A stretch of 64,000 nucleotides of DNA from Phascolarctobacterium sp. Lineage in GTDB: Bacteria > Bacillota > Negativicutes > Acidaminococcales > Acidaminococcaceae. Of the stretch, positions 15,113-51,076 are shown one piece after another (within the stretch, counting starts at the first letter, position 1; every line of letters starts with the position of its first letter). The translations under genes and the position numbers were made by a program. The stretch covers positions 62,001-126,000 of the forward strand of contig JAFUKD010000007.1 of assembly GCA_017467905.1 (NCBI GenBank), given 5' to 3'. The notes beneath the pieces are model-generated. The model saw only the letters and a list, made by a program, of their open reading frames with translations, was not told the origin of the DNA and did not search any database.

Positions 15113-15772
15113 TTACTTTTTGTACGCTGCGGAAGCGAGGATTTCCATTTTAGCAAACTTTTTCGGAGTGCTGCCTAAATCGAATTTTGCAGAAACCTTT
15201 TCGTTAGCAGGTACGGTTACTGCAAAAAGGCTTCTTGCATAAATGATTTCGCCTGCTTCATCGTAGTAAACTACTTGTGCGGTGCAGTTAAGATTGTTAG
15301 CAGTGCTGTTGATGATTGCTACACGCTCGCGGTCATAGTCCATATTGTAAACTACACCGGATTTGTTATCTTCATCAATACCGGGGACAAGCACTGCAAA
15401 TTGAGAGCGTTCTTGTTTTACCAAGGTGTACTTAATTTTTTCAGTATCTTTCTTAGTAGGGTTTATGGGGACGTAAACGCTTTGCTTTGCGCCAAGGGCG
15501 GTGATGGTGTTGTTTTCGATAGCTTCCAGCCAGAAATCGCCTTTGTCGTAGCAATCCGCCTTAAAGTTTACTTGCACAACGGCGTCGCTGTTATTGGTAA
15601 CGAGCACGCCAAAATTGTCAGAGGTAATTTTTAAACCCAAGATTTTTGCAGAGCGAGTCCATTCTACAGGCTTGAGGACGATGTTTTTATCATCCAGTTT
15701 ACCACAGCCGCTCACAGCGCAGATGGTGAGAAGCATTACAAAACTCATAACGAGAGTAAGAATTTTTTTCAT
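15113..15772 (-). CDS. Lipoprotein of unknown function
   Basis: The protein has 219 residues. A signal peptide (KKILTLVMSFVMLLTICAVSGC) ends in a lipobox with lipidated Cys at about 22-23, followed by GKLDDKN and two predicted beta-rich Ig/FxLYD-like halves (VLVTNNSDAVVQVNFKADCYD; VAIINSTANNLNCTAQVVYYD). The pattern suggests an extracytoplasmic beta-sandwich protein; I do not recognise a function. GGGAGGAAC precedes the ATG. It has its own promoter and lies between the toxin locus and the CRISPR locus. Confidence 0.8.
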   Translation of the reverse strand: MKKILTLVMSFVMLLTICAVSGCGKLDDKNIVLKPVEWTRSAKILGLKITSDNFGVLVTNNSDAVVQVNFKADCYDKGDFWLEAIENNTITALGAKQSVYVPINPTKKDTEKIKYTLVKQERSQFAVLVPGIDEDNKSGVVYNMDYDRERVAIINSTANNLNCTAQVVYYDEAGEIIYARSLFAVTVPANEKVSAKFDLGSTPKKFAKMEILASAAYKK

Positions 15773-15809
15773 AAGATGTTCCTCCCGTGATTAAATTATT
15801 CATAGCAGA

Positions 15810-15838
15810 ATTATAACATTACTGGAAGCGTTGCACAA
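15810..15838 (-). promoter_or_regulatory. Promoter of the lipoprotein gene
   Basis: On the minus strand: TTGTGC (15838-15833), 17-bp spacer, TGT-TATAAT (-10 at 15815-15810, extended). The rest of the gap up to cas9 holds the tracrRNA. Confidence 0.65.
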
Positions 15839-15957
15839 TTAGATTTTGATATTGCGAAGTAATATGAGGTGAACTTGAAAAATTGTACTCAATGTTATAT
15901 ATTAAATTATGTAAAGATAATTTTGTTTAACACTCGTTTCCCTGTTCATTTTAAACG

Positions 15958-15986
15958 TTTACAATTAATGGCAGAAGTGTTATACT
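15958..15986 (+). promoter_or_regulatory. tracrRNA promoter
   Basis: TTTACA (15958-15963), 17-bp spacer, TGT-TATACT (-10 at 15981-15986, extended). The predicted start is near 15993, just before the anti-repeat. Confidence 0.75.
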
Positions 15987-15992
15987 TAACTC

Positions 15993-16091
15993 AATCCTTT
16001 ATACCATACCAAGGATTATTAGGTTACTATGATAAGGTAGTACACCGAAAAGCTCTAACGCTCTGTCTTACGGCAGGGCGTTATCTTTTTT
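15993..16091 (+). ncRNA. tracrRNA of the type II-C CRISPR system
   Basis: An anti-repeat from 16000 (TATACCATACCAAG, then ATTAGG and ACTAT) pairs with the CRISPR repeat as read on the minus strand: 14 perfect pairs, then 6, then 5 with internal bulges. It is followed by ATAAGG...CACCG (the nexus region) and a terminator hairpin, AACGCTCTG/GGCAGGGCGTT with a T-run (16056-16091). About 99 nt. Position upstream of cas9 on the same strand. Confidence 0.85.
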
Positions 16092-16140
16092 ACAGACAAT
16101 TATAAATTTCAAAATAAATGTTATGAAAGGTTGTATGAAA

Positions 16141-19100
16141 ATGGCTTACGCAATTGGTTTAGATGTTGGTATTGCTTCAGTTGGTTACGCTGTTGTAGCT
16201 TTAGATTATGAAGAAAATCCTTGGGGAATTATTCGCATGGGAGCGCGCATTTTTGATGTTGCAGAAAATCCTAAAGATGGTGCGTCTTTGGCGTTGCCAC
16301 GTAGGGAAGCAAGGGCTGCAAGAAGACGATTGCGCCGTCGCCGTCATCGTATTGAAAGAATAAAGAACTTATTTACAGATTCTAAGCTGCTAACAGCAGA
16401 GCAATTGGAAAAACTTTATGATGGTAAGAAATTAGAAGATATTTACAATTTACGTGTAAGAGCCTTGGGAGAAGCAATGAGCAATGAAGAAATAGCTCGT
16501 ATTTTATTGCATTTAGCACATAGACGTGGATTTAAGTCTAATCGTAAGGCAGAAAAAGCTGATAAAGAAAACGGTTTGCTTTTGACTGCGGTAAGTGAAA
16601 ATGCTAAAAGGATGCAAGAGAATAACTATCGTACTATTGGTGAGATGTTCTTTAAAGATGATAATTTTAAGGAATACAAACGCAACAAAGGTGGAAGTTA
16701 TTTAACTACGGTTGCACGAGAGATGGTTACAGATGAGGCTAAGCAAATTTTCACTGCACAAAGAGAATTTGGAAATAACATTCTGACAGAAGAATTTGAA
16801 CAAAGATATCTAGAAATTTTATTGAGTCAACGTAACTTTGATGAAGGGCCTGGCGGAGAAAGCCCTTATGGCGGTGACCAGATTGAGAAGATGATTGGTT
16901 ATTGTACTTTTGAGCCTGGAGAAAAGCGTTGTGCGAAAGCAAGTTATTCTTTTGAGTACTTTAACCTTTTGCAAAAGGTAAACCATTTACGTTTATTGGT
17001 AGATGGTGAAAAGATAGCATTGGATGACAGTCAAAAGAAAAAGATAATTATGCTTGCTAAGACTAAAGCAGATTTAAAGTATAATCAAATTCGTAAAGAG
17101 CTTGGTTTGGGCGAAAAGGTACTGTTTAATGGTCTTGTTTATAATGGTAATGTTGATGAAGTAGAGAAAAAAGCAAAGTTTAATTATTTGCCTGCTTATC
17201 ATCAAATGCGTAAAGAACTTGATAAAGTTTCTAAAGGACACATAGAAACTTTAGATTTAGTAACTTTAAATGAAATTGGTAGAATCTTATCTGTGTATAA
17301 GAGTGATGCTAAACGAGTTGAAGCATTTAGTAAACTAAATCTTGCTAATGAAGATGTTGAAGCGTTACTTAACATCAATGGTTTAAGAAAGTTTGGTCAT
17401 TTATCCTTAAAGGCTTTGGATAAGATAATTCCATATTTGGAACAAGGTTTGATTTATAATGAAGCTTGTGCTGCTGCTGGCTACGAATTTAGAGGTCATG
17501 TTGGTAATGAGAAAACTTTTCTTTTGCCAGGAAAAACTGATGAAATGGAGAACATTACCAGTCCTGTTGCACGTCGTGCAATCTCGCAAACTATTAAAGT
17601 TATAAATGCTATTATACGTGAGCAGGGAGAAAGTCCTTTATATTTGAATATAGAGCTTGCTCGTGAAATGGCAAAAGATTTTGATGAACGTAAAAAAATA
17701 AAAAAAGAGCAAGACGACAACCAAGCTAAAAATGAAAGGCTTTTAGAAAGAATAAGAACAGAGTTCCATAAACAAAATCCAACAGGATTAGATTTGGTTA
17801 AATTTAAATTGTGGGAAGAACAAGATGGCAGAAGTCCTTATTCTGGTAAGACTATTGAAATTAATAGATTGTTTGAACCTGGTTATGTAGATGTAGACCA
17901 TATTGTTCCCTATAGCATTAGTTTTGACGATACATTAAAGAATAAAGTTTTGGTATTCGCTTCTGAAAATAGGGAAAAAGGAAAGAGCTTACCAATTCAA
18001 TACTTAGCAAGGAAATTTGGACAAGAAGCTGTTGATAACTTTAGGGTACGTGTAAACAACGATGTAAGGAACTACAAAAAGCGTCTTAATCTTTTGAAGG
18101 CAGAGGTAACAGAGGAAGACCGTAATAAGTTTAAGGAACGTAACTTACAAGATACTAAAACTATTTCTCGTTTTATGTATAATTACATTAACGACCATCT
18201 GCTTTTTGCAGAATCTGAAACGGGTAAGAAGAAACGTGTTACTGCTGTTAATGGCGCTATAACTTCTTATTTGCGAAAACGTTGGGGGATTAACAAAGTA
18301 CGTGCAAATGGCGATAAGCATCATGCGGTAGATGCTTTGGTTGTTGCTTGTACTACTGATAAACTTATTAAAGATTTGTCTTATCATTCACAGTACCATG
18401 AGGTTGAATATGACCATGGTGAAAAAGAAAGTTTATTGGTAGATAGAGCGACCGGAGAAATTTTAAAACGATTCCCTTATCCATGGGAAGATTTTAGAGC
18501 AGAACTTATGGCTCGTTTATCAAATGACCCAAGTACTGCGTTAAGAAGATTGCAGTTGTTGTTCTATCAAAATAAAGATTTAAATGATATTAAGCCGATT
18601 TTTGTATCACGTATGCCTCGACGTAAGATTACTGGTGCTGCCCATAAAGCAACTGTTAAGGGAGCTCGTCATATTGAACAAGGAATTGTAGTTTCTAAAA
18701 AGAATTTGACTGACCTTAAATTAAATAAGGATGGTGAAATTGAAAATTACTATGCACCCGAAAGCGATAGACTGCTTTATGAAGCATTAAAAGAGCAGTT
18801 GAAGAAATTTAATGGTAATGCCAAAAAGGCTTTTGAACAGGATTTCTTTAAACCCAAAGCAGACGGTACGCTTGGACCGAAAGTAAAGAAGGTTAAGGTT
18901 TATGAAAAATCCACCTTGAATGTTAGCGTACAGCAAGGAACAGGCGCTGCTGATAATGACAGTATGGTGAGGGTTGATGTTTATAAAGTTGAAGGCGATG
19001 GTTATTACCTTGTACCCATCTATGTTGCTGATACTTTGAGGAAAAAGTTACCTAATAAAGCAATAGTTGCACACAAGCCATATGAAGAATGGATAGAGAT

Positions 19101-19437
19101 GGATACTAGAAATTTTGTATTTTCTTTGTATCCAAATGATTTAGTGAAGTTTGTACACAAAAAAGAAGTAGTTTTCAACAAGGTTAATGATGATAGCACT
19201 TTAATTGATTCTTACCAGACTAAGGAAGAAATTGTGTATTATAAAAAAACAGGTATTGCAAATGCTACCGTTAGTATAATTAATGCTGATAACACTTATG
19301 CAATACCGAGTTTAGGTATAAAAACTTTGTTGTCCTTAGATAAATATCAAGTGGATGTACTTGGTAATTATCACAAGGTTGGAAAGGAAACCTTACAAAC
19401 TTTCAGTAGATATCAACAAACGAAAAAGAAGCCTTAA
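16141..19437 (+). CDS. cas9: CRISPR-associated endonuclease Cas9, type II-C
   Basis: The protein has 1098 residues from ATG 16141 (GAAAGG 10 nt upstream; in-frame ATGs at 16135 and 16123 are alternatives). RuvC-I carries GLDVG with D8. The arginine-rich bridge helix is at 54-78. RuvC-II carries NIELARE with E505. HNH carries DVDHIVPY with D586 and H587 plus N610. RuvC-III carries HHAVDALVVAC with H727 and D731. All catalytic residues are present. Size and sequence resemble the Geobacillus/Neisseria-type compact Cas9s. The C-terminus YQVDVLGNYHKV is typical. It cuts DNA guided by crRNA:tracrRNA and a PAM; the PAM cannot be read here. Confidence 0.97.
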   Translation: MAYAIGLDVGIASVGYAVVALDYEENPWGIIRMGARIFDVAENPKDGASLALPRREARAARRRLRRRRHRIERIKNLFTDSKLLTAEQLEKLYDGKKLEDIYNLRVRALGEAMSNEEIARILLHLAHRRGFKSNRKAEKADKENGLLLTAVSENAKRMQENNYRTIGEMFFKDDNFKEYKRNKGGSYLTTVAREMVTDEAKQIFTAQREFGNNILTEEFEQRYLEILLSQRNFDEGPGGESPYGGDQIEKMIGYCTFEPGEKRCAKASYSFEYFNLLQKVNHLRLLVDGEKIALDDSQKKKIIMLAKTKADLKYNQIRKELGLGEKVLFNGLVYNGNVDEVEKKAKFNYLPAYHQMRKELDKVSKGHIETLDLVTLNEIGRILSVYKSDAKRVEAFSKLNLANEDVEALLNINGLRKFGHLSLKALDKIIPYLEQGLIYNEACAAAGYEFRGHVGNEKTFLLPGKTDEMENITSPVARRAISQTIKVINAIIREQGESPLYLNIELAREMAKDFDERKKIKKEQDDNQAKNERLLERIRTEFHKQNPTGLDLVKFKLWEEQDGRSPYSGKTIEINRLFEPGYVDVDHIVPYSISFDDTLKNKVLVFASENREKGKSLPIQYLARKFGQEAVDNFRVRVNNDVRNYKKRLNLLKAEVTEEDRNKFKERNLQDTKTISRFMYNYINDHLLFAESETGKKKRVTAVNGAITSYLRKRWGINKVRANGDKHHAVDALVVACTTDKLIKDLSYHSQYHEVEYDHGEKESLLVDRATGEILKRFPYPWEDFRAELMARLSNDPSTALRRLQLLFYQNKDLNDIKPIFVSRMPRRKITGAAHKATVKGARHIEQGIVVSKKNLTDLKLNKDGEIENYYAPESDRLLYEALKEQLKKFNGNAKKAFEQDFFKPKADGTLGPKVKKVKVYEKSTLNVSVQQGTGAADNDSMVRVDVYKVEGDGYYLVPIYVADTLRKKLPNKAIVAHKPYEEWIEMDTRNFVFSLYPNDLVKFVHKKEVVFNKVNDDSTLIDSYQTKEEIVYYKKTGIANATVSIINADNTYAIPSLGIKTLLSLDKYQVDVLGNYHKVGKETLQTFSRYQQTKKKP

Positions 19438-19463
19438 TTTTGTTCCGCAAAGGAGTGGTGAAG

Positions 19464-20366
19464 ATGGCTTATCGTAATCTACTTATTGAGAGTTGTGCCA
19501 ATTTAAGTTGTAGGCAAGAGCAGCTAATTGTCACTACGGATTGCAAACATTCCATACCGATGGAGGATATCAATTCCATTGTATTAGAGAACAATCAAAG
19601 TACGATTACGATAGCTGCACTTTCAAGGCTTGCACAAAATGGCGTGAGTGTTTTTGTATGTGATGAAAAGCATTTGCCTTGCGCTGTTTTGGAAAGTTTT
19701 GCTCAACATTCACGTAATGTAGGGGTAATGCGTTTGCAGGAAAAGTTATCTTTACCACAACAAAAGCGTTTGTGGAAACAAGTAATTCAAGCAAAAATAA
19801 ATAATCAAGCGGAATGCTTGATGCTTTGTGGCAAAGAAAAAGAATCCACTTATCTAGGTGGTTTAGCTAAAACCGTAGTAAGTGGTGATGCAAAGAATAT
19901 AGAAGCTGTAGCTGCGAATTACTATTTTAAAAATTTATTTGGAGTAGGGTTTTCGCGGGGTGATGACGCTGATGGAAGAAATAGTGCATTAAATTATGGC
20001 TACGCTATTTTAAGAGGTCATATTGCACGATTACTTACCGGTTATGGCTTCTTACCCATGCGTGGTATTCATCATCATAGTGAACAAAATAGTTTTAATC
20101 TTGCTGATGACTTCATAGAACCCTTTAGACCTGTTGTTGATTTATATGTTGCTCAAAATGTAAGTAAACAAGATTTACTTGCACCTATGGTAAAACGAGG
20201 ACTTTATAATTTACTAAATGCGGATATGCTTAGTGGCGGTCAAAGACATAGTGTTGCCTATTCAGCTGAAAGGTTGGTACAAAGCTTTATGCGTTGTTGC
20301 CAGCAAACTACAAAAGAGTTAATGCCACCTAAGTTGGTTGCATTAAAACAACATACTTATGAATAA
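19464..20366 (+). CDS. cas1: CRISPR-associated integrase Cas1, type II
   Basis: The protein has 300 residues from ATG 19464, with AGGAG 8 nt upstream. Type II Cas1 signatures are present: NSIVLENNQSTITIAALSRL, E147 in NIEAVAANYYF, and the metal-site His/Asp in GIHHHSEQNSFNLADDFIEPFRP. With Cas2 it integrates new spacers. It lies 26 bp after cas9 and overlaps cas2 by 8 bp. No csn2 or cas4 is present, which defines subtype II-C. Confidence 0.96.
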   Translation: MAYRNLLIESCANLSCRQEQLIVTTDCKHSIPMEDINSIVLENNQSTITIAALSRLAQNGVSVFVCDEKHLPCAVLESFAQHSRNVGVMRLQEKLSLPQQKRLWKQVIQAKINNQAECLMLCGKEKESTYLGGLAKTVVSGDAKNIEAVAANYYFKNLFGVGFSRGDDADGRNSALNYGYAILRGHIARLLTGYGFLPMRGIHHHSEQNSFNLADDFIEPFRPVVDLYVAQNVSKQDLLAPMVKRGLYNLLNADMLSGGQRHSVAYSAERLVQSFMRCCQQTTKELMPPKLVALKQHTYE

Positions 20367-20679
20367 GTTTATGAGAATGCTTGTATTTTTTGACATACCG
20401 GTAAAGACCGCCAAACAAAGAAGAATTGCAACAGGGTTTAGAAACTTTTTGTTAAAAGATGGATATCATATGGTGCAGTATTCAGTTTACGCAAGAGTGT
20501 GTAATGGATTAGATGCTGTTGCCAAACATAAGGCAAGATTATATTCGTATTTGCCTGATAATGGCTCTGTAAGATTGTTGGTTATAACAGAGAAGCAATA
20601 CGAAACTATTGAAATTCTGGTGGGAAACTATAGTGAAGATGATACACCATTTGTTTGTGAGCAGCTTTCTATTTTCTAA
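20359..20679 (+). CDS. cas2: CRISPR-associated protein Cas2
   Basis: This 106-residue ferredoxin-like protein has LVFFDIPVKTAKQRRIATGFRNFLLKDGYHMVQYSVYAR, the typical Cas2 N-terminus with the conserved Asp. It is the structural partner of Cas1 in spacer acquisition. It ends 99 bp before the first repeat. Confidence 0.95.
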   Translation: MNKFMRMLVFFDIPVKTAKQRRIATGFRNFLLKDGYHMVQYSVYARVCNGLDAVAKHKARLYSYLPDNGSVRLLVITEKQYETIEILVGNYSEDDTPFVCEQLSIF

Positions 20680-20731
20680 AAAAAGAACATTGAACGGTAT
20701 ATTTGTGTTTAATAAATTTGCTTTTTTAAAA

Positions 20732-20770
20732 CAGAAACTCCCAGGAACATAGTGTTTCTGGGAGTTTCTG
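20732..20770. terminator. 13-bp perfect hairpin between cas2 and the array
   Basis: CAGAAACTCCCAG and CTGGGAGTTTCTG form a perfect stem with a 13-nt loop. It ends 8 bp before the first repeat. It can end cas transcription (plus strand). On the minus strand it is followed by TTTTAAAAAAG and can end the crRNA transcripts. Confidence 0.65.
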
Positions 20771-20778
20771 CGTTCCCT

Positions 20779-21870
20779 GTTATACCATACCAAGAAAAAT
20801 TAGGGAACTACAACGCGTAGCTGAAAACAAGGTATGCTTCATCCGTTATACCATACCAAGAAAAATTAGGGAACTACAACCCCGACTAATTGTTTTTTAG
20901 ATGGATTTAAGTTATACCATACCAAGAAAAATTAGGGAACTACAACTTGCACTCTGCTCTGAACGCAGGGCGGTTAGTTATACCATACCAAGAAAAATTA
21001 GGGAACTACAACCTTGTTTCTTCACTGGTAAAGGAAGGGCTGGTTATACCATACCAAGAAAAATTAGGGAACTACAACTCTAAAGGTGGCTTTACTAAGT
21101 CCTTTGTAGTTATACCATACCAAGAAAAATTAGGGAACTACAACATCAGACCTTTTGAAGGAGTACCTTTTTTGGTTATACCATACCAAGAAAAATTAGG
21201 GAACTACAACTCGTAGACCAGACCACTGGCGAAACCTTGGGTTATACCATACCAAGAAAAATTAGGGAACTACAACAGAATAGATGATGTATTGGAAACG
21301 TTCCGTGTTATACCATACCAAGAAAAATTAGGGAACTACAACTTAGCGCCTTTAACCATGTTTGACCAGCCTGTTATACCATACCAAGAAAAATTAGGGA
21401 ACTACAACGGGTGTATGGTAACGCTTGGGTGTCTGGTAGTTATACCATACCAAGAAAAATTAGGGAACTACAACTGTAACCAACACTTCTTATGACGGCA
21501 ATGCGTTATACCATACCAAGAAAAATTAGGGAACTACAACTTCTATGTCAACGGGCGCAAAGCCTACGGGGTTATACCATACCAAGAAAAATTAGGGAAC
21601 TACAACTTTACGCAGCGTCTGAAGAACGATTCACTAGTTATACCATACCAAGAAAAATTAGGGAACTACAACACCCTGTAATGGTAGATGAGATTTTACC
21701 TGGTTATACCATACCAAGAAAAATTAGGGAACTACAACGTAATATCATTGCCACTCAAAAACGGCTTTGTTATACCATACCAAGAAAAATTAGGGAACTA
21801 CAACCCAACGGAACAAGCCCCCACCGAAAAGCAAGTTATACCATACCAAGAAAAATTAGGAAATAATCAT
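20779..21870 (-). CRISPR. CRISPR array, 17 repeats of 36 bp and 16 spacers of 30 bp
   Basis: Repeats start every 66 bp from 20779 to 21835. The first 16 appear identical; the seventeenth (21835-21870) is degenerate over its last 11 bases. All spacers are exactly 30 bp. On the crRNA strand (minus) the repeat begins GTTGTAGTTCCC, like Neisseria and Campylobacter II-C repeats, and ends TATGGTATAAC, an extended -10 (TGG-TATAAC). The tracrRNA anti-repeat fixes this orientation. Thus the array is transcribed opposite to the cas genes, probably from promoters inside the repeats. Confidence 0.97.
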
Positions 21871-21885
21871 AAAGTAGTTCACTTT

Positions 21886-21922
21886 GATTATATCATATAG
21901 AAAAATTTTATGGAACTCTAAG
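21886..21922 (-). repeat. Fossil CRISPR repeat with a consensus -10
   Basis: ATTATATCATAT-AGAAAAATT-TGGAACT aligns with the repeat with a 2-bp deletion and scattered changes (roughly 27 matching positions). It lies 15 bp beyond the degenerate repeat. On the minus strand its end reads TATGATATAATC, a full TGATATAAT extended -10, so it could serve as the array's outside promoter. Confidence 0.5.
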
Positions 21923-22002
21923 ATATGTTATGATAGTAATGGCTGGAGTATCGGATACTTCAAGTAAAATAACAAAACTCTATGCTAAGCTGAACTAAAT
22001 AG

Positions 22003-23025
22003 TTTGCAGAAGAAGCTAAGGCAAAGCTTGAGAGCCTGCGTTACGAATTGGAACTTTTAGATAAAGTATAAGCCAAGCAGATAGACACGTAACAATACGG
22101 CTTCTTGGCAACAAGAAATACACAGCATTGGATTACATGAAAGCTCACCCGGTAGGGTTTGGCGGCGAAGTAGAGCGTGGAGCGTTGGGGCAACCCGTTA
22201 CCAATCCGGAAATTACTTTGGATACCAAGGTTAAGGTAGTTGAAACCAAAAGGATGTTTAAAGACCAAGATTGGTGGGACATTAGAAATGATTTTATAAA
22301 CAAATATCCCGATGTTGTTAACAGATAAGAATGGGAAACATATACCCATAATCAATACTTTGAGTAAAGCCAAAATTGTTTTAAGCAAAGATAGCATAAA
22401 GCATGTACTTTCTGACGTAACCAGTAGCACGAAAGAAGATTCAAGCATTGGTGAATTGCGCAGGGATGTTTACCATTATGAACTCGTGCCAGTTTTGCGT
22501 GAATTGATACAAAATGGTGTCTTGATAGAAGAACATGAAGATAAACACAAGAAAGATAGGAGGGTATATAGATTATTCTGTCCTGTAGAGTTTGATGACG
22601 GTAGCTTTTTTGTAGTCAAGCTAACCATTAAAAAACAAAAAAACAATTATTTGCTTGATGATGACAGCTTTACAGATTTGCGGATATACGATGTGCAACG
22701 CATAAAAAAAGAACCCGTACAACGACCTCAAAGTTCCGGCGAACCGGGGTCCCATGAGGGTAGTCCTACGAGTCTTTCTGGATTAAGTATAGCAGATATA
22801 CTTAAGGATGTCAAAGACAACAACGGAATTCCGTATATTGGTGAAGATGGCAAGCTCAATGTTAATTTTGTAGAAAACACCAACACTTTCAATCAATCTG
22901 CTTGGCACGGAACGCCGCATAACTTTGAAGCTTTTGACTTAGGGGCAATCGGAACTGGCGAAGGCAATCAAGTACATGGCTAGGGTTTGTATAGTGCTAA
23001 AAATAGAAAGATTGCACAAAATTAA
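22003..23025 (+). pseudogene. Decayed phage polyvalent-protein gene (ART-PolyVal-like domain)
   Basis: Fragments in shifting frames are seen. 22128-22328 carries KVVETKRMFKDQDWWDIRND. At about 22320 the frame shifts to DKNGKHIPIINTLSKAKIVL, which continues to 22980. The end SAWHGTPHNFEAFDLGAIGT then GEGNQVHG is the ADP-ribosyltransferase-like domain of phage polyvalent proteins. There a TAG (22981) stands where the family has Trp (HGWGLY), followed by GLYSAKNRK. Two or more disabling changes show it is dead. It is probably a prophage or plasmid remnant. Confidence 0.7.
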
Positions 23026-42252: not shown

Positions 42253-43425
42253 ATGAATTTTTTTAAGTTTTCTGCGGCGCTGGCAGTTGCCAGCTGCTTT
42301 TTTATAAACTCCATAGCGGGGGCTACTGCCAAGGAGGAGCACGAGCTTTTTGATACGAAGCCTTCTGCCTCAAAACAGGAAGCAGCCTTCCAAAATGAGA
42401 AGAAGCCTTCCAAAACGAAGGGCTCTGCTCCAAAACGGGAGGAAGCTTCCAAAACGAAAGACTCTACTTTAAAACAGGAAGCAGCCTTCCAAAATGAGAA
42501 GCAGTCTTCCAAAACGAAGGGCTCTGCTCCAAAACGGGAGGAAGCTTCTAAAAATGAGAAGCAGCCTTCCAAAGCGAAAGGCTCTGCTTCAAAACGGGAG
42601 GAAGCTTCCAAAAACGAGAAGCAGTCTTCCAAAATCGAAAGGAAGCCTGTGAAGAAGGAATACTGGGGCGGTATGGAGCTACCTGCAGATTTTAAAAAGA
42701 TTTCTATTTTCGGAAGCGCTGTTGCTACCAAGGGACAGGCGGTAAATTTAATTAAGCAGACTAATTCTGACGTGAACCTTGAGTGTAGCGTGGAAGAGAT
42801 TGTAGATTTTTACTGGGCAGAGGCAGAGCGCGAGGGGGTGCGCCCCGATATTGCCTTGGCGCAAGCCTTGGTGGAAACCGGTTACTTCCGTTTTGGAGGA
42901 ACGGTGAAGCCCAAGCAAAATAATTTCTGCGGCTTGGGGACTACGGGTAAAAAGGTGCGTGGCGCTAAGTTCGATAATCCGGAGCAGGGAGTGCGTGCTC
43001 ATATTCAGCATTTGCTTGCTTATTCTGCGAAGAAGAAGCCTTCTACTAAAATTGTAGACCCTCGTTACGAATTGGCACATGCCATCCGTAGCGAACGTGG
43101 TTACGTTGATACCTGGTACGGGTTGAACGGGACTTGGGCAATGGGTTCTAATTATTGCGAAAAGATTATGGTTACTTACCAGAGGATGCTGGGAATGGAA
43201 ATGAGTAAGGCAGAACAGGAAGCCTTGCTTGCCAAACAGAGGTTGGAGCAGGAACAACGTGAAACCCAGCTGAAAAAGGACAAGAAGTATCGCAAGCAGA
43301 TGGAAAAGGAAGCCAAGGCTCGTAAGAAAGCTGAGAAGGAAGCTAAGAAGCGTAAGCAGAAGGAAGCTGAACATAAAATGCACGCACGCGTAGATAAAGT
43401 TGTGCGTGAAGAGAATGATAAATAA
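42253..43425 (+). CDS. Secreted N-acetylglucosaminidase-type cell wall hydrolase
   Basis: The protein has 390 residues. A signal peptide (FFKFSAALAVASCFFINSIA) is followed by a Lys/Ser/Glu-rich repeat spacer (about 36-135). The glucosaminidase domain (about 165-315) has IALAQALVETGYFRFGGTVK with the catalytic Glu, NNFCGLGTTG and ERGYVDTWYGLNGTWAMGS. A C-terminal Lys/Glu coiled coil follows. It should cut the glycan strands of peptidoglycan in the periplasm. Confidence 0.85.
   Translation: MNFFKFSAALAVASCFFINSIAGATAKEEHELFDTKPSASKQEAAFQNEKKPSKTKGSAPKREEASKTKDSTLKQEAAFQNEKQSSKTKGSAPKREEASKNEKQPSKAKGSASKREEASKNEKQSSKIERKPVKKEYWGGMELPADFKKISIFGSAVATKGQAVNLIKQTNSDVNLECSVEEIVDFYWAEAEREGVRPDIALAQALVETGYFRFGGTVKPKQNNFCGLGTTGKKVRGAKFDNPEQGVRAHIQHLLAYSAKKKPSTKIVDPRYELAHAIRSERGYVDTWYGLNGTWAMGSNYCEKIMVTYQRMLGMEMSKAEQEALLAKQRLEQEQRETQLKKDKKYRKQMEKEAKARKKAEKEAKKRKQKEAEHKMHARVDKVVREENDK
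42376..42635 (+). repeat. Nested in-frame repeats in the glucosaminidase spacer
   Basis: A 60-bp unit (GAAGCTTCYAAAAAYGAGAA, then GCAG and CTTCCAAA-GCGAAAGGCTCTGC) recurs at 42481, 42541 and 42601. A longer period of about 99 bp links 42376 and 42475. They encode PSKTKGSAPKREEASKNEKQ-like units. Confidence 0.8.
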
Positions 43426-50932: not shown

Positions 50933-51050
50933 GTTCATTACGATGTTTACAGCGCACATCGTGAAGCGTAATTGTAACTACAATGTTAACGTCGTACATT
51001 GCGAAACGTGATTGTATCATTACGATGTTCAGCGCACATCGCGAAGCGTG
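50931..51050 (-). ncRNA. Type III antitoxin RNA, three tandem 40-nt repeats
   Basis: On the minus strand the units are 51050-51011, 51010-50971 and 50970-50931, each exactly 40 nt. Unit 1 begins CACGCTTCGCGATGTGCGCT. Each can form a stem, CGATGT with ACATCG in units 1 and 3. In unit 2 it is CAATGT with ACATTG, a compensatory change that keeps the pairing. This is the form of ToxI-like RNAs that the toxin cuts into single units and that then inhibit it. Confidence 0.8.
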
Positions 51051-51076
51051 CAAAAGAGTTATGCTCTCCTGATTAA

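Follow-up and report, generated by a model that had tools for sequence, protein, structure and literature searches.

The locus studied here raises the question of whether the repeats of a CRISPR array carry their own promoters and, if they do, which guides those promoters would serve. The window, by which we mean the whole stretch of 64,000 nt analysed, holds a CRISPR-Cas9 locus of type II-C in a genome of the Acidaminococcaceae, the family of Acidaminococcus fermentans and Phascolarctobacterium. Answering the question requires the strand of the crRNAs, the element at the end of each repeat and the two ends of the array, where the oldest repeat is eroded and where the newest is followed by a short complementary flank.

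Composition of the locus and strand of the crRNAs

The gene content is that of type II-C, with cas9, cas1 and cas2 abutting one another and neither csn2 nor cas4 seen, cas4 being judged from the locus only. No frame of at least 70 aa suited to a further cas gene lies between cas2 and the array, the Csn2 model matched nothing in the window's own genome, and the type II-A combination of csn2 with an array codirectional with the cas genes was not found at the locus. The array consists of 17 repeats of 36 nt, 16 of them identical, at a spacing of 66, and the repeat (allowing up to 3 mismatches) is absent from the rest of its genome (41 contigs). Read on the minus strand, the order is ghost repeat, extra repeat, the 16 exact repeats, flank and hairpin (Table 1).

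Table 1. Features of the CRISPR-Cas locus, in window coordinates
Feature	Position	Strand	Details
tracrRNA promoter-like site	15958..15986	+	TTTACA-17-TATACT, TG before the -10; sigma-70 scan
tracrRNA anti-repeat	15999..16029	+	complementary to the repeat apart from its positions 9-10
tracrRNA terminator-like hairpin	16056..16083	+	T tail after it
cas9	16141..19437	+	open frame from 16123; TIGR01865, 814.8 bits
cas1	19440..20366	+	TIGR03639, 279.3 bits
cas2	20359..20679	+	TIGR01573, 78.2 bits
Terminator-like hairpin, predicted end of array transcripts	20732..20770	-	followed by TTTT on the minus strand
Flank past the newest repeat	20771..20778	-	AGGGAAC (20772-20778) complementary to GTTCCCT (20802-20808)
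Newest, cas2-proximal repeat	20779..20814	-	its TGGTATAAC at 20779-20787 reads into flank and terminator
16 exact repeats with spacers	20779..21804	-	TGGTATAAC at the end of each repeat
Oldest spacer	21805..21834	-	
Eroded extra (17th) repeat	21835..21870	-	6 mismatches within positions 1-12; 13-36 exact
Ghost 18th repeat	21887..21922	-	perfect TGATATAAT at 21887-21895

The tracrRNA anti-repeat lies on the plus strand in the same sense as the plus-strand repeat, between a promoter-like and a terminator-like site of its own. Because this tracrRNA is read on the plus strand, its crRNA partner has to come from the minus strand, which settles the strand of the crRNAs provided that the tracrRNA of Table 1 is the one used. 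Transcription of the array against the cas operon, as in type II-C, is thus indicated by sequence alone, through the sense of the anti-repeat and the flanking tracrRNA signals. The preliminary description had argued for the same direction from the anti-repeat, and it was correct in this: in addition to the signals on the plus strand, repeat orientation places all 56 of the analysed arrays antisense to cas9. An anti-repeat upstream of cas9 and on its strand, scoring better than 20 shuffles, was found at 44 of the 56 related loci. Seven of the 12 misses are faults of the search region, from a wrong open frame for cas9 in six (L070, L093, L096, L097, L113, L114) and a cut cas9 in one (L104); at L069, L078, L082, L103 and L121 no anti-repeat was found in the 1500 nt searched.

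The PAM was rejected as an independent test of strand. Comparison of the whole array with phages and plasmids returned only weak or repetitive matches, and a search of IMG/VR with exact 20-mers of 8 of the 16 spacers gave matches for one, whose target is 18-nt-periodic and its PAM unreadable. This spacer (21409-21438) targets a phage gene with an 18-nt period in six IMG/VR contigs (L183-L188; the best match has 1 mismatch, in L184), such that one guide matches many sites per contig.

The extended -10 element at the repeat end

All 17 repeats end on the minus strand in TGGTATAAC, which agrees with the extended -10 consensus at 8 of 9 positions (N counted as free) and lacks the final T. The degenerate motif TGNTATAAY occurs 28 times in the window against 5.15 expected and a maximum of 12 in shuffles, 17 of the copies lying in the array, 1 in the ghost repeat and 10 elsewhere; since the array copies derive from one sequence, the excess counts as one event and not as 17. 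A two-hexamer sigma-70 scan, which requires T as the last base of the -10, detected no site within the array, and no -35 for the repeat-borne element passes it; over 15700-22400 the scan gave 8 sites against 22.9 in shuffles.

Conservation was followed in relatives. Of 203 Cas9 relatives 80 were kept, which with the window and three more loci gave 64 arrays, 61 of them with a 36-nt consensus; L067, L073 and L076, whose consensus was trimmed short, stand outside the 61 and were used later, in the whole-fold test, with start positions set by hand. L034 is the same record as L044, and L038 the same as L100. Five arrays of uncertain orientation or distant relationship (L035, L036, L037, L102, L110) were left out of the extra-repeat, anti-repeat, terminator and own-versus-swapped flank counts. 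A perfect TGNTATAAT ends the repeat in 43 of the 61 arrays adjoining related cas9 genes. The final nine bases, written in crRNA sense, are TGGTATAAT in 33 arrays, TGATATAAT in 10, TGGTATAAC in 4 (the window, L047, L056 and L079), TGAAATAAC in 3, TGATATGAT in 2 and singletons in nine. Over 56 unique repeats the 3' block is kept except at position 30, the N of TGN (G 34, A 19, C 3), and the final base of the -10 is T in 43 and C in 13. The -10 of the window is TATAAC, and that of its two nearest family members TATAAT. The last T of a -10 element is generally its most conserved base. Without this T, which most relatives possess, the repeat promoters of the window may be weak.

For type II-C, promoters within repeats, arrays antisense to the cas genes and 3' growth are already in the literature, as far as the parts of the sources at hand go (PMC12638026, PMC8092290, PMC3936727, PMC8616872, PMC12080349). 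The locus resembles the II-C loci of Neisseria meningitidis and Campylobacter jejuni, in the parts of their accounts available, in its cas9-cas1-cas2 order, in an array set against the cas genes, in extended -10 elements ending the repeats and, presumptively, in growth at the 3' end; in contrast to the TATAAC of the window, the -10 described there ends in T. The proposal that the repeats carry their own promoters holds for the place of the element and its conservation in relatives, and is weakened by the missing final T and the lack of a scan hit; its likeness to the published II-C design also holds. A promoter in each repeat of the N. meningitidis and C. jejuni arrays was reportedly described by Zhang in 2013 and by Dugar in 2013 and 2018.

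On this design, RNA polymerase would start on the minus strand from the extended -10 that makes up the final nine bases of each repeat, at about 7-9 nt into the next spacer (a distance borrowed from the published design), and read towards cas2. Each start would give a crRNA with a shortened guide, the repeat of which would pair with the plus-strand tracrRNA, and the array transcripts would end at the terminator-like hairpin beyond the newest repeat. New spacers would enter beside cas2, so that the distal, eroded repeat would be the oldest. A II-C locus with repeat-borne minus-strand starts that grows at its cas2 end is, as a whole explanation, highly probable in our judgement. Two numerical details of the preliminary description change. 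It had counted 17 starts, of which 16 would be useful: the newest repeat points into the hairpin 8 nt further on, and as transcription from it would set in at roughly the near edge of the hairpin, it would serve no spacer and be a dead end. The promoter of each repeat faces the spacer that follows on the minus strand, which leaves the extra repeat to serve the oldest spacer. It had also held that no upstream promoter is needed, and this could not be upheld, as the ghost repeat (12 mismatches; 0 of 2000 shuffles as good) aims a perfect TGATATAAT at the array and may provide an outside start.

The ghost element allows a different account, in which one long precursor starts from it and is cut with tracrRNA and RNase III, the TATAAC sites in the repeats being weak relics. 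The ghost element does possess the final T that the repeats lack. However, 32 of 37 arrays have no ghost-like site within 150 nt, most relatives have a perfect -10 in every repeat, and the ghost is itself a degenerate repeat that would carry the element by descent, and we consider the single precursor quite unlikely. Most unlikely of all is that the likeness to a -10 is a coincidence, the 3' block being kept only for pairing with tracrRNA or for Cas1-Cas2. Repeat positions 22-35 are nearly always paired with the anti-repeat, so that the block is fully paired with tracrRNA, as this account would have it. Against it, positions 14-21 usually pair as well and yet their letters vary freely, the one free letter of the block is the N of TGN, and position 36, paired in only 13 of 44 systems, is nevertheless T or C in all 56 unique repeats; pairing alone therefore does not explain the block. 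With repeat-borne starts as the preferred reading, the window adds a member to the known II-C design and offers a natural test of -10 tolerance, TATAAC against TATAAT.

Erosion of the oldest repeat

The extra repeat is mutated in 30 of the 37 arrays in which the far end is present, the other 19 of the 56 being cut by a contig end or gap and outside this count. Changes affect 136 of 444 cells at positions 1-12, 25 of 555 at positions 13-27 and 9 of 333 at positions 28-36, and the last nine bases are exact in 32 of the 37 extra repeats. Selection for the promoter was considered as the cause of this pattern and rejected, since the oldest repeats of 12 type II-A arrays, which sit at the opposite end and need no promoter, erode likewise from the outside in, with changes in 38 of 144 cells at the outer 12 positions, 13 of 180 in the middle and 2 of 108 at the inner nine. 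Outside-in erosion thus appears generic; in type II-C it happens to spare the promoter and proves no selection. Erosion at the far end would be compatible with acquisition of spacers on the 3' side of the array as transcribed.

In the portions available of PMC12080349, Feussner and colleagues find the extra-repeat mutations of II-C arrays mostly within the first 15 nt; they propose that extraneous crRNA is thereby suppressed, and note that the promoter has to survive. As in those arrays, the extra repeat of the window is mutated in its first 12 nt and intact in its last half; the terminator, conversely, lies past the newest repeat and not upstream as in that account. Terminator-like sites upstream of the extra repeat were found in just 3 of 37 arrays. 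Because II-A oldest repeats erode alike, suppression of extraneous crRNA is not needed to explain the extra-repeat mutations, and the II-A erosion (L144-L155, L030) bears on the published reading in its own right.

The flank beyond the newest repeat

In many arrays of the clade, the newest repeat is followed by 8-12 nt that are complementary to its middle part. The flank pairs with the newest repeat at a duplex energy of -8.83 kcal/mol compared with -4.88 kcal/mol for the first 12 nt of internal spacers, perfect runs of at least 6 occur in 30 of 63 flanks compared with 67 of 995 internal spacer starts (Fisher p 7e-17, with related arrays not independent), and in 34 of 63 cases the flank scores better than all internal spacers of the array to which it belongs. 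With one array per distinct repeat, as in the own-versus-swapped, whole-fold and flank-versus-spacer tests alike, flanks fit their own repeat better than swapped ones (-9.35 against -7.12, sd 0.23; 51 unique repeats). The 12 nt that come next showed no such gain, nor did the sequence upstream of the extra repeat; at flank nt 41-52 there was a slight one (-4.11 against -3.74, sd 0.17).

Covariation points in the same direction. Two groups of 7 rows each had 3 and 5 pairs changed on both sides and scored 0.392 against 0.176 and 0.680 against 0.361, respectively, with 0 of 500 shuffles as high in either; the groups were picked by eye for register and their counts lean towards structure. The label of the paired register changes 15 times on the Cas1 tree (53 rows), and within one supported clade the window pairs at repeat positions 7-13, A. 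fermentans at 13-21 and Phascolarctobacterium at 17-22. In the window the fold consists of a 7-bp hairpin directly against the terminator stem; its energy of -36.3 kcal/mol (z -6.05) is owed in part to that stem. Whole folds, in which L102 and L110 were included again, as in the flank-versus-spacer test, and from which L174 and L175 (L037-like repeats) were left out, gave 7.08 pairs with own and 6.00 with swapped flanks (sd 0.33; permutations reached 7.13 at most, and 12 of 63 fell in the best tenth), a gain kept modest by the fact that AGGGAAC fits any GTTCCC repeat. A 20-nt flank window was rejected, with 0.91 of own and 0.92 of swapped flanks scoring 10 or more, as the A-rich linker pairs with T runs.

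The signal does not extend to all systems. No perfect run of 6 was present in the first 15 nt of the flank in 24 of 53 tree rows, and in Ilyobacter, Pasteurella and several other distant systems the flank is no better than spacers. Thirteen further loci yielded arrays in eight by script and in one by hand (L180), the latter a Pasteurella plasmid locus with two repeats at cas2 in which no covarying flank was seen. As a pairing control, limited to 13 arrays, II-A leaders gave -5.34 with own and -4.93 with swapped repeats (sd 0.30) over the last 12 nt, and -7.15 and -5.71 (sd 0.50) at nt 34-45.

As complementarity at the presumed growing end, judged from the letters, the flank hairpin is real, and the covarying 3' flank, which may set the window apart from the N. 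meningitidis and C. jejuni loci, is new as far as the literature was searched: no downstream leader-repeat hairpin in II-C was found among titles and abstract openings, subscription papers being mostly outside that scope. The passages of PMC13187072 at hand describe II-A and type VI leaders beside the newest repeat that pair with it. The leader of the window similarly adjoins and complements its newest repeat over 7 bp; it differs from those described in lying 3' of the transcript, so that the paired repeat belongs to the newest crRNA and not to an extraneous one. A hairpin on the extraneous repeat, which would block ecrRNA as in II-A and VI, was not found, there being no signal at the extra repeat. 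Since the complementarity is found where the array presumably grows, and not where extraneous crRNA would arise, leader-repeat pairing may be a property of the growing end itself rather than a part of extraneous-crRNA suppression. In II-A arrays, pairing at the growing end cannot be told from pairing at the extraneous repeat; the flank sets these two readings apart.

What the flank does is less certain. The part of the repeat that it pairs with is also used by the tracrRNA, and by analogy with II-A and type VI the hairpin may slow tracrRNA on the last repeat; as every start reads on to the end, it would hold back the newest crRNA, which would otherwise be overproduced. That the downstream leader is a covarying partial anti-repeat shielding the repeat of the newest crRNA from tracrRNA, or else a two-part 3' end, with leader-repeat pairing belonging to the growing end, is a proposal on which our judgement is evenly balanced. 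The complementarity could instead be a DNA signal for Cas1-Cas2 at the integration site, an idea favoured by its position exactly at the presumed integration end, confined to the nearest 12 nt and lacking upstream of the oldest repeat. Unlike a footprint, however, the paired stretch takes up different repeat positions from clade to clade (7-13, 10-18, 13-21, 14-19, 17-22, 1-7). Moreover, mismatches within the helix on the crRNA strand are G.U in 20 and A.C in 5 cases, compared with 736 and 685 in swapped pairs (rows not independent), an excess that leans towards an RNA hairpin; with a less strict 20-nt test, in which the A-rich linker interfered, the counts were G.U 26 and A.C 35. We regard a DNA signal as doubtful. 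Equally hard to favour is a hairpin that forms, with the following stem, one two-part transcript end acting in termination or 3' stability and of no bearing on tracrRNA. The two helices do abut in the window, where the flank hairpin may be half of a double 3' hairpin, and 30 of 56 arrays have a terminator-like hairpin in the 60 nt that follow, which in 25 of these starts 7-15 nt from the repeat (1 of 280 in shuffles). The terminator pattern is nevertheless absent in 26 of the 56, several of which have flank complementarity. If functional, the flank would give compact Cas9 systems an element that controls their newest guide.

Outside the locus, proteins of 751-812 aa match the first half of the Cas9 model, three of them encoded in the window's own genome (L024:808-3063, L027:688-3126 and L028:751-3114, all minus strand; E 3e-75 to 6e-77) and two in the same genus (L019:814-3072 and L025:751-3114, both minus strand). 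They have no Pfam match and no CRISPR array in the surrounding 11.8-18 kb. Alignment with the Cas9 of the window shows no conservation of the HNH motif or of the RuvC-III His/Asp; at the place of the RuvC-I Asp, three of the proteins have Asp and two have Glu. The presence of three copies in one genome suggests a kept, non-CRISPR role. Elsewhere in the window, the array finder reported three spaced copies of GAAGCAGCCTTCCAAA at 42379-42573, and the Rfam family Fusobacteriales-1 matches 50940-51053 on the minus strand with 97.9 bits, the host genome being of another phylum.
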